This document shows positions 33,731-52,460 of a stretch of DNA of 64,000 nt, in pieces. The position numbers and the translations under genes were made by a program. The notes under the pieces were generated by a model. It had not been told where the DNA came from, searched no databases, and saw nothing but the letters and a program-made list of their open reading frames with translations. Each line of letters starts with the position of its first letter. Position 1 is the stretch's first letter. The stretch comes from Parahoeflea alexandrii (GTDB taxonomy: Bacteria > Pseudomonadota > Alphaproteobacteria > Rhizobiales > Rhizobiaceae): assembly GCF_027214025.1 (NCBI RefSeq), contig NZ_JAPWHB010000002.1:372001-436000 (forward strand), given 5' to 3'.

Positions 33731-34549
33731 TCATGTCAGACTGTAGAAGAATCTCACGGCGACGGACAGCATGAAGCAGCCGAACCCGATCTCCAGCTGC
33801 CGTTTGTCGAGCGCATGGGCGAAACGTACCCCCAGCGGCGCGATGAGGAGCGTGATCGGGATGATCAGCGCGACCACAAGCCAGTCGATATACCCGGTCG
33901 AATAAGGCGGGAGACCATCTGCCCCCCACCCTGCCCACATATAGCCGAACAGTCCCGGGATCGCGATCAGCACACCGACGCCCGCAGATGTCGCCACCGC
34001 CTGGTGCACCGGGCGGTCGTAGAGCGTCATGAAGGTGTTGTTGAGCACACCCCCGCCAATCCCCATCAACCCGGAGAGAAGCCCGATCAGCCAGCCGACG
34101 GTCGCTCTGACCGGATTTCCCGGCAACACGCTGCCCAGGCGCCAGCTCTGCCGGTTCAACAGCATTCGCAGACCAACCAGGATGGCGATGACCGCAAAGA
34201 TGGCGCGCAGGCCGGCACTGGAGACCGAAGCCGCCACCACCGATGCGGAGACCACGCCCAGCGGCACTGGCAGGATCCAGCTGCGCAGCAACTGCTGATC
34301 CACAGCACCGCGTTTTCTGTGCGCCATGAAAGAACGGATCGAAGTCGGCACGATGATGGCGAGCGAGGTGCCGACCGACAGGTGCATCCGCACCGCGTCA
34401 TCGATGTGAAGCAGGCCAAAGAGCTGATAGAACACCGGAACAAGGATCGCCCCGCCACCGATGCCGAACAGGCCCGCAAGAATCCCGGCCACGGCCCCGG
34501 CGCCGGCAAGGGCTGCCGCAAACCAGATCAAGTCCCCCATTGGTGGCAT
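33731..34549 (-). CDS. TauE/SafE-family anion permease (probable sulfite exporter)
   Basis: This is a 272-residue membrane protein with seven to eight helices in two similar halves. The first half has GILAGLFGIGGGAILVPVFY and the second GLLSGLMGIGGGVLNNTFM, the repeat signature of the TauE/SafE family that moves sulfite, sulfoacetate or other anions. ATG at 34549 has AGGGA upstream; ATG at 34540 is possible. It has no sulfur gene nearby. Confidence 0.87.
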   Translation of the reverse strand: MPPMGDLIWFAAALAGAGAVAGILAGLFGIGGGAILVPVFYQLFGLLHIDDAVRMHLSVGTSLAIIVPTSIRSFMAHRKRGAVDQQLLRSWILPVPLGVVSASVVAASVSSAGLRAIFAVIAILVGLRMLLNRQSWRLGSVLPGNPVRATVGWLIGLLSGLMGIGGGVLNNTFMTLYDRPVHQAVATSAGVGVLIAIPGLFGYMWAGWGADGLPPYSTGYIDWLVVALIIPITLLIAPLGVRFAHALDKRQLEIGFGCFMLSVAVRFFYSLT

Positions 34550-34649
34550 TCAAGCAATCCCTGTCCGGCGTTCCGCCGCCTGCCGGAACAAATTCCCTGA
34601 TGCCTTTAGCTTATCCGGCAGACGTCATCAAACAGAGACATTCTTCGGG

Positions 34650-34812
34650 CAATGTCGAGACACGGCAGGGAGGCAATCATCCGGCCGTGTGGACTCCATG
34701 GGCCGGCTCCCCCCGCTTGTACGCCGGCCGCGTCGGGAGTTCTCCCGCTCCGGGTTGACGCCCCATCCCCCGGCAACGGGTTGAAGGCTGGCTTGTCCAG
34801 CCTTCTTTTTTT
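34650..34812 (+). ncRNA. Candidate small RNA ending in an orphan terminator
   Basis: No plus-strand gene precedes the strong terminator at 34784-34812. The 130 bases before it fold into successive hairpins: ACACGGC/GCCGTGT (34660-34690), GGCCGGC/GCCGGCC (34701-34729) with a C-rich loop TCCCCCC, and CGGGAG/CTCCCG (34734-34747). C-rich loops that pair with ribosome-binding sites are common in rhizobial regulatory RNAs. The 5' end is a guess and no clear promoter was found. Confidence 0.4.
34784..34812 (+). terminator. Rho-independent terminator on the plus strand
   Basis: The perfect eight-pair stem AAGGCTGG/CCAGCCTT with loop CTTGT is followed by CTTTTTTT. The T run is only on the plus strand, where no gene ends. 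Confidence 0.85.
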
Positions 34813-34814
34813 GT

Positions 34815-35909
34815 TCAGTCGCAATGCCTGTAGCCGGTCTTGCGCGCTCTCAGGTCAAAATGGAAATGATCCTTGTGATGAACGTCGCTGCCGGGCCCGA
34901 GAACGGTGGTGAAATATTTGCAGCTGTCGCTACGGATCGTCTTAAGCAGGCTTTTCTCGCGGAAGGAAAAGAACCCGGGCTTGCGCACCGAGATCGCCTG
35001 GCCGTTGTCGAGCGTGATCTTGCCGACATCGATGGCGTTGCCGGTTGCATGCTCGGACATCGGCGCACCGCGTTTGGAGTTCATCGTCCGGCAGGAATAG
35101 GATGACAGCTGGTTGATCGAGCTCACGCCGGAGAGGTAGCGAAGCCTCGCGGCAGGCGCCAGTTCGTTCTTCACCCACTGGGCGAACGCATCGGTGACCT
35201 GGCAGTTGAGCTTGGCCGCCGGCTTGATCCTGATGCCGCCCGAAAGCTCGGTCACTTCGACCGGATACGGGATCGAACAGCCCTTGCCGCTGTTGACCGC
35301 CGGAAGGTCGCGGTAGGTCACTCCAAGCCTTTTGAGCCGGTTGCGGCAGGCCTTCTCCGCCGCCGGCATGCCACCGGCCCACTGCGGCGCGCTCATCGGA
35401 TTGCCGACCCGCGGCATCAGCCCGGCAACCTGCACCTGGGCGTCATCGGTGCGGTTGTCCTGAAACTGCCCGTCGGTACCAATCACCATTCCGTCTGATC
35501 CGCCATCGAGCGGATTGCCGGATGTCCCGGCAAGCTGCGGATTGTCGGTGCCGATCCCGGTCACGACCGGCTGCTCCATCCTGCCCTCGGGCAACGCCGA
35601 CGTCATCTCGTTCATGTCCACCCCTGCCGAGACCGGGTAGGCAAGCACGTTCTGCATCGGCGCATCCGGACTGTTGGGAACGGTAGAATCGGATACATCG
35701 GCGAACATGGCCGGAGCAATCGGCGCGCTGGACATGATCACCGGCGCGGAAGGCTCGCTGCGGATCATCGGTGCCGCGGGCTCGATCGCCAGCAGATCCC
35801 CGGGAGGCGACATGTCGCCCGAACATCCGCCGGCGACGAGCGCGGTTGTCAGCGCCAGTCCGGCCATCGACGGCCGGCGGCGGCGGATTCTGGATACGGG
35901 AGGCAACAT
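34815..35909 (-). CDS. Extensin-like C-terminal domain protein, probable lipoprotein
   Basis: This is a 364-residue exported protein. An Arg-rich start and hydrophobic stretch end in LVAGGC, a loose lipobox. Residues 30-170 are a Pro/Ser-rich linker with many SAP and PM steps. The extensin-like C-terminal domain follows, with CRNRLKRLGVTYRDLP, SSYSCRTMN, SEHATGNAIDVG and HHKDHFHFDL. The two His/Asp motifs match the zinc site of D-Ala-type peptidases of the LAS group, so a role in peptidoglycan processing is inferred. Cysteines probably form disulfides. Confidence 0.82.
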   Translation of the reverse strand: MLPPVSRIRRRRPSMAGLALTTALVAGGCSGDMSPPGDLLAIEPAAPMIRSEPSAPVIMSSAPIAPAMFADVSDSTVPNSPDAPMQNVLAYPVSAGVDMNEMTSALPEGRMEQPVVTGIGTDNPQLAGTSGNPLDGGSDGMVIGTDGQFQDNRTDDAQVQVAGLMPRVGNPMSAPQWAGGMPAAEKACRNRLKRLGVTYRDLPAVNSGKGCSIPYPVEVTELSGGIRIKPAAKLNCQVTDAFAQWVKNELAPAARLRYLSGVSSINQLSSYSCRTMNSKRGAPMSEHATGNAIDVGKITLDNGQAISVRKPGFFSFREKSLLKTIRSDSCKYFTTVLGPGSDVHHKDHFHFDLRARKTGYRHCD

Positions 35910-52154: not shown

Positions 52155-52283
52155 ATCACGCCCATTCTCTACCATCCGGACTCTAACCGTCGGCCCTGGA
52201 ATTCCACCAGTGTCTGCTGACCCACCCGAGGGTGGCGCTCGCGGGCTGTAACCGCCGGTGGGGAATTTCACCCCGCCCTGAGA
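52155..52283 (-). ncRNA. FMN riboswitch (RFN element) controlling ribH
   Basis: On the minus strand the segment starts CTCAGGGCGGGGTGAAATTCC, then shows the conserved ACCGGCGGTTACAGCCCGCGAG, CAGCAGACACTGGTGGAATTCC and GCCGACGGTTAGAGTCCGG blocks, ending GAATGGGCG. These are the standard RFN boxes in order. It turns ribH down when FMN is plentiful. Confidence 0.93.
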
Positions 52284-52460
52284 ATAGGCCGGTGGTAATT
52301 CGTCATTCGGCGGCTGTCAATTTGTTCCGCGCGTCACGGCACGCGCGGAAACCCGTGACACTGCGTTCACTGGCCCGATTGCGGTTTCTTGGAAAACTTC
52401 GGAACTCTGCGCGGGCGCTGACGTTGGCACCCTGTAAGTTTCATCACCAGGGAGCAAATC

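Follow-up and report, generated by a model that had tools for sequence, protein, structure and literature searches.

A candidate PhoB-controlled small-RNA gene beside an extensin-like gene in Hoeflea and sister genera

The window analysed here is a 64,000-nucleotide stretch of the genome of Parahoeflea alexandrii, a species counted below with the genus Hoeflea, and all positions refer to it unless another locus is named. Domain matches identify two minus-strand genes that frame the segment of interest: a TauE/SafE family gene (PF01925; 33731-34549), which is its divergent upstream neighbour, and a gene with an extensin-like C-terminal domain (PF06904; 34815-35909), which converges on it. Between the two, a terminator scan places an intrinsic terminator on the plus strand at 34783-34812, consisting of a 9-pair stem with a 5-nt loop (34783-34805) and a run of seven T that reaches 34812. 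This confirms the orphan plus-strand terminator between minus-strand genes from which the preliminary description started. Taken alone, the single hairpin is not beyond chance, as three terminator-like sites were found in 3.5 kb and 2.4 were expected in shuffles. The observation is raised above chance by comparison, because stem and T run recur in 12/12 Hoeflea copies, as does the motif CCCCAT.

In 19/19 copies from sister genera (described below) the scan likewise found a stem followed by a T run on the strand of the RNA, and this orientation bears on a simpler explanation, namely that the hairpin does no more than mark the 3' end or signal termination for the convergent extensin-like gene, with no separate transcript. 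The terminator does end 2 nt short of the extensin-like stop codon, and a hairpin density at chance expectation would suit such a signal. However, the T run lies on the plus strand in all 31 copies scanned and on the minus strand in none, where at most one A stands directly 5' of the stem; moreover, the hairpin goes with a Pho-type box in the plus direction, and four sister loci keep box and terminator despite an identified gene before the extensin-like gene. We therefore regard this explanation as unlikely.

A DNA search of 41 genomes, 18 of them from the window's genus, returned 12 matches, all within that genus. In G008 a contig end cuts the locus before the box; G003 gave no DNA match and was recovered by synteny (as L044), and the other Hoeflea genomes without a DNA match (G006, G009, G011, G016 and G017) were left out of the synteny comparison. 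The conservation counts given here accordingly rest on 12 usable Hoeflea copies, identified by sequence and synteny. Across the genus the region sits between the same TauE/SafE and extensin-like genes, and its alignment resolves into a sharp upstream block (CGTCATCAAACCGAGACATTTTTCAAGCATTGTTTT in most copies), a 3' block (GACGCCCCATCC and then the terminator) and a middle that is variable and gapped. In Hoeflea M_23 (G014; L012/L029/L043), an insertion just 3' of the CCCCAT region has cost this copy its terminator, and the assembly is broken at that point; read from its sequence, this is a natural disruption of the candidate RNA gene.

The most informative part of the locus, which was absent from the preliminary description, is its promoter box. 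This Pho-box-like operator, ACGTCATCAAACAGAGACAT, at 34622-34641 on the plus strand, is an 11-bp-type direct repeat in a diverged Hoeflea form that is conserved in the genus. A putative -10 element follows on the same strand at 34650-34655 (CAATGT here, CATTGT in most Hoeflea), assigned in the alignment by its spacing to the box, and a promoter scan found no sigma-70 consensus promoter at the candidate gene. Among the S. meliloti genes with a PhoB box presented in PMC3616915, 16 of 33 have their start 22-25 nt downstream of the box, and by the same spacing we place the 5' end here near 34662. The predicted small RNA, of about 150 nt, would thus span 34662-34812 on the plus strand, with a 5' end placed to within a few bases by the box spacing and a 3' end given by the terminator. 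It probably starts slightly inside position 34650, at which the candidate had earlier been taken to begin, and the putative promoter (34622-34655) lies mostly outside the segment as first drawn. In Hoeflea the length of the RNA would vary between 135 and 150 nt.

From its 5' end, the predicted plus-strand RNA comprises a first hairpin, H1 (34660-34690), which recurs among species with a different sequence; a second predicted hairpin with a C-rich loop, H2 (34691-34742), which lacks conservation across the genus; and, from alignment and fold, an H3 region (34744-34780) that contains the invariant CCCCAT. This motif (34761-34766, plus strand) is identical in 12/12 Hoeflea copies and is the presumed pairing seed. 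For the interval 34640-34814 the predicted folding energy is -79.8 kcal/mol (z -2.23, with 3 of 200 shuffles equally good), and full copies gave z-scores from -1.77 to -3.79 in 12/12 Hoeflea copies, with the 5' hairpin at the same place despite differing stem sequences (z below 0 in 12/12, mean -1.76); for the region before the box the mean over the Hoeflea copies was -0.40. Conserved structure in relatives, whose absence had been named as a refutation of the candidate, is therefore present. The chain of hairpins described upstream of the terminator finds no support as a detail, since the body of the window's copy without its terminator is unremarkable (z -0.49).

Over the Hoeflea copies, the body without the terminator has a mean z of -1.58 versus -1.02 for the reverse complement, a modest difference between the strands. 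Two-sided changes that preserve pairing were seen at 2 of 6 predicted pairs in one comparison and at 3 of 13 in another. Of 11 copies, 4 retain one pair just 3' of CCCCAT as it is, 5 have both of its bases replaced with pairing preserved and 2 have lost it, and the Hoeflea sequence alignment yielded no consensus structure for the variable middle. Within the window's CCCCAT the first three C have unpaired probabilities of 0.97-0.98, the fourth C 0.28 and the A 0.34; the mean over the four C is at least 0.66 in 11 of the 12 Hoeflea copies and 0.44 in H. marina.

We also considered whether the transcript might be a PhoB-regulated mRNA encoding a small protein, given that the copies contain short open frames. 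Two such frames lie on the plus strand of the window. The first (34461-34784) stops at the terminator, and it was not taken as a gene because it is partly antisense to the TauE/SafE gene and because at least 5 of 11 relatives have stops that interrupt the aligned frame; the second (34652-34912) reads through the terminator and is likewise interrupted by stops in several relatives. Inspection by eye, to which no codon statistics were added, found no reading frame that the 12 Hoeflea copies share, their frames differing in length and start. A small-protein mRNA is thus extremely unlikely. Three features by which intergenic sRNAs are recognised, a putative promoter, a Rho-independent terminator and the lack of a conserved frame, are found in the sequence of the candidate small-RNA gene.

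The likeness of the box at 34622-34641 to a Pho box was assessed with a scoring matrix trained only on 25 of 26 pstS promoters. This pstS matrix ranked the window's own box first of 6522 positions in its locus, with a low score of 4.0 of a possible 33 (background p 1.3e-4); such a score is reached at about 1 in 7700 positions, and the box is therefore the best in its locus, not unique in the genome. The matrix placed the box first in 18 of 19 sister loci (fourth in L046). Among 13 Hoeflea loci it was first in three, including the window's own, and within the best five in 11, while it ranked 8th in L029 and 73rd in L044 (G003). The Hoeflea box has diverged, carrying GAGACA versus GTGAY in the sister form. 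As for its architecture, the Hoeflea pstS promoters examined carry consecutive 11-bp repeats, which in the window's own genome read CTGTCATAAAA CAGTGATGCAA CTGTCATAAAA (L078:1500-1540), and an inverted-repeat reading of the box was dropped since the pstS promoters display an 11-bp direct repeat. Control by ChvI instead of PhoB was also set aside, as ChvI motifs do not resemble the box by eye; those given in PMC9731502 are TTGC-N3-GCAA and N-GCC-N8-GCC.

The sister form (TGTCAYNAAACNGTGAY) occurs at 20 places in 19 genomes, and at none in the reversed control: 14 at the small-RNA locus, 3 before pstS, 2 before a PPOX-type flavoprotein gene and 1 elsewhere. All three pstS boxes are from Hoeflea (the window's own genome, G003 and G014), and each is the single exact match of its genome. 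In the own genome this pstS box adjoins a PhoR gene (TIGR02966, 335.8 bits, cut-off 334.2), and PhoB is encoded as well (TIGR02154, 342.5 bits, cut-off 296.2), 4.6 kb beyond pstS. A sequence-only Infernal model of the box, built from 17 sister copies, gave three matches in the own genome, of which the top two are partial and lie inside long open frames and the third is pstS; the window's own box was not among the matches of this model at E <=10.

Furthermore, a stricter form of the box was searched in an order-level sample of 297 genomes, 284 of them from other families, and returned 7 exact matches, all in other families; the reversed control gave none. An alkaline phosphatase gene (NF007810, 812 bits) follows one of them at 65 nt, calcineurin-like phosphoesterase genes follow three at 47-54 nt, and the remaining three are elsewhere. 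We take these phosphoesterases to be PlcP-like, PlcP presumably being a PhoB-controlled phospholipase. A pattern for the Hoeflea form matched 15 stretches in named genomes, 10 of them Hoeflea (among them H. alexandrii, H. marina and H. halophila). Two of the others, one from a Beijerinckiaceae MAG and one from Rhabdaerophilum (probably related to each other), stand 44 nt before a gene for a PhnS-like binding protein (L030:228-1205 and L037:1776-2753; TIGR03261, E 5e-43 and 2e-44, below cut-off), and the remaining three matches outside Hoeflea look like chance. Judged by sequence, then, the box at 34622-34641 looks like a Pho box.

Two observations were made at boxes of this kind away from the small-RNA locus. 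In L076 and L077 (G499 and G569), a Pho-type box, CTGTCATAAAACGGTGAT, lies upstream of the PPOX flavoprotein gene, in L076 at 32 nt before the start codon of an MSMEG_1061-type FMN-dependent PPOX flavoprotein (TIGR04025), and this gene is possibly a member of the Pho regulon. In L091 (G575), an exact box lies about 107 nt before a short minus-strand frame (1058-1393) whose start resembles a signal peptide by eye and which matches nothing in Pfam or NCBIfam.

Counterparts beyond Hoeflea were found from the extensin-like gene, which has a match in 221 of 247 family genomes. The 3' side was examined in the best 30 loci, which are those most similar to the window's, and the fraction with a box hence cannot be extended to the family. 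A box, in some cases as a recognisable variant, was present in 22 of these 30, in 20 within the flank and in two farther away, where the box lies in the same genome at a distance of 1.8 and 2.8 kb (L085 and L084). The 22 comprise 3 Hoeflea loci and 19 genomes from 9 other genera. In five of the best 30 no box was seen, one was cut by a contig end, and two carry another variant: in these two (L061 and L069, genus g155), a variant box, GTCACGATCCTGTAAC, and by eye a terminator-like end occupy the same place, and the locus is possibly a further diverged copy. In the 19 sister genomes the layout is that of a box, a short RNA of about 90-262 nt and a terminator, beside or near the extensin-like gene. 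Of 218 family genomes, 19 contain the exact sister box, and these represent 9 of 109 genera.

The gene neighbourhood changes around this layout. Between the candidate RNA and the extensin-like gene there is a GST gene in L047 and L050, a gene with an AadA_C domain in L052 and a GFA gene in G575, and in G424 the RNA locus lies 1.8 kb from the extensin-like gene, with an intervening frame that has no Pfam match. In a large-genome genus (g207), which we take to be Sinorhizobium/Ensifer, the locus has a BigR-like ArsR-type gene (NF040642, 133.5 bits, cut-off 155) on one side and the extensin-like gene on the other, and no TauE/SafE match was found in the flank of L055, L056, L058, L062 and L067, though the RNA gene is present. 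These loci speak to the possibility that the box serves the divergent TauE/SafE gene and that the plus-strand terminator is incidental. The distance would allow this, with the window's box about 73 nt before the TauE/SafE start codon; however, several genera with no TauE/SafE gene in the examined flank keep box, RNA and terminator, and we consider such a role very improbable.

The same variation bears on the idea that PhoB drives a cis-antisense regulator of the extensin-like mRNA, the 3' UTR of which may cross the RNA gene in the opposite direction. The convergent arrangement in most of the genomes examined, together with a minus strand that has no T run after the hairpin, would favour such an overlap. 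Against this, the terminator halts the RNA short of the extensin coding sequence, the RNA gene stands away from the extensin-like gene in L047, L050, L052, L084 and L085, and conservation inside the RNA is highest in a short C-rich motif, for which a cis-antisense RNA has no need; this leaves the idea improbable. The separation of the RNA gene from the extensin-like gene in some genomes, and from TauE/SafE in others, points instead to an RNA that acts in trans.

Searched over 151 family genomes, a covariance model built on the Hoeflea 3' domain carried the comparison only a little beyond the genus. It returned 77 matches at E <=0.1, most of which we take to be terminator-like noise, and those at the extensin 3' flank outside the genus were limited to G427 (24.1 bits) and G522 (21.7 bits). 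The covariance comparison proposed in the preliminary description therefore found the locus, by weak matches, in two genomes of other genera and little else. The candidate small RNA itself gains support from what Hoeflea and the sister genera have kept, namely the box, the position, the 3' end and the terminator. The locus also illustrates how a candidate small RNA can be recognised by its promoter and place once its sequence has drifted past the reach of covariance models.

Taken together, we consider it likely that the segment is a PhoB-controlled small-RNA gene. Its computed features, which are the gene layout, conservation, likeness of the box to pstS Pho boxes, terminator and lack of a common frame, are those set out above; transcription, phosphate control, the part of Hfq, trans action and targets are what we infer for it. 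At low phosphate, phosphorylated PhoB would bind the Pho box at 34622-34641, which would replace a -35 element, and transcription would start. The resulting plus-strand RNA (about 34662-34812) would consist of the 5' hairpin and the variable middle, followed by a 3' part that contains CCCCAU(C) and by the terminator hairpin with its U tail. It would act in trans, probably with Hfq, which is encoded in the genome, through its C-rich stretch on the 5' regions of mRNAs, the targets being mRNAs of which a phosphate-starved cell should make less. Conserved and preceded by a Pho box, such an sRNA gene would provide a concrete link from PhoB to post-transcriptional control in this bacterial family.

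More tentatively, and with somewhat less than even confidence, we propose that PhoB-controlled small RNAs of this type form a family, so far without a name, that spans at least 10 genera and in which box, place and terminator are kept and the body evolves fast. In Hoeflea, CCCCAU, the one fixed interior element, could pair directly with AUGGGG at translation starts, and a set of mRNAs would then be silenced after transcription in the phosphate-starved cell. Sites complementary to GACGCCCCATCC with at most one mismatch numbered 37, compared with 20 for the reversed control. Two complements are exact, one being the RNA gene itself and the other (L142) not lying at a recognisable start, and inspection of 30 of the 37 sites with a crude frame test brought out no convincing target. 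The preliminary description had suggested that a C-rich loop, probably that of H2, could pair with ribosome-binding sites; this is unproven, as the H2 loop is not conserved and the target search was unconvincing, and the conserved C-rich element is CCCCAU(C) and not the anti-Shine-Dalgarno CCUCC, which leaves the detail of ribosome-binding sites without support.

Several known RNAs share traits with the candidate. Alpha-r8 (MmgR; SisA-D in Caulobacter) is likewise alphaproteobacterial, and is described in PMC12559287 as Hfq-associated, with a terminator and a C-rich core that is short, conserved and single-stranded; this core, however, is UUUCCUCCCU as opposed to CCCCAUC here, this 10-mer is absent by eye from 34656-34812, and no Rfam match is found here, which sets the candidate apart from that family. 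AbcR1/AbcR2 of S. meliloti are similar in their proposed pairing by C-rich unpaired regions (PMC7143759), yet they lie at a different locus and use CU-rich anti-Shine-Dalgarno motifs, whereas the candidate has no conserved CCUCC-type motif; a word search found no mention of PhoB in the main text of that review. The PhoB-induced sRNA of E. coli, compared by description only, increases rpoS translation (PMC8829014) and resembles the candidate in its PhoB control, predicted here, but it belongs to another bacterial class with other neighbours and presumably other targets. The same article reports S. meliloti RNA-seq in which sRNAs change under phosphate stress, and in the part that concerns us it does not lay out links of PhoB to particular sRNAs. 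Among the tabulated S. meliloti candidates of PMC2573895 that were compared, none fits by orientation and neighbours. In the literature covered, to which the supplementary catalogues of S. meliloti RNA-seq do not belong, no PhoB-controlled small RNA is reported at this place, and a counterpart may possibly already be in such a catalogue. We file the candidate, by its sequence features, as a putative intergenic small-RNA gene with a Pho box, of a known kind and a new family.

Searches against Rfam 15 gave no family at gathering score in the small-RNA region. A lax search of the region returned ar7 (RF02342) and two other weak matches, and the relatives gave two weak matches to Burkholderia families in 18 of the 20 first-listed loci (L003 and L045 were left out for their size). 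The ar7 match (34731-34842) shares with the candidate a C-rich stretch followed by a terminator, but its 13.9 bits are far under the gathering score of 60, which places the candidate outside this family. We take smrC7 and SmelC023 of S. meliloti to be ar7. The former adjoins polA in the description of PMC2573895, and relatives of the latter adjoin the DNA polymerase I gene in that of PMC3927594. Across the whole window, the sole Rfam match at gathering score is an FMN riboswitch (RF00050, 109 bits) on the minus strand at 52160-52289.
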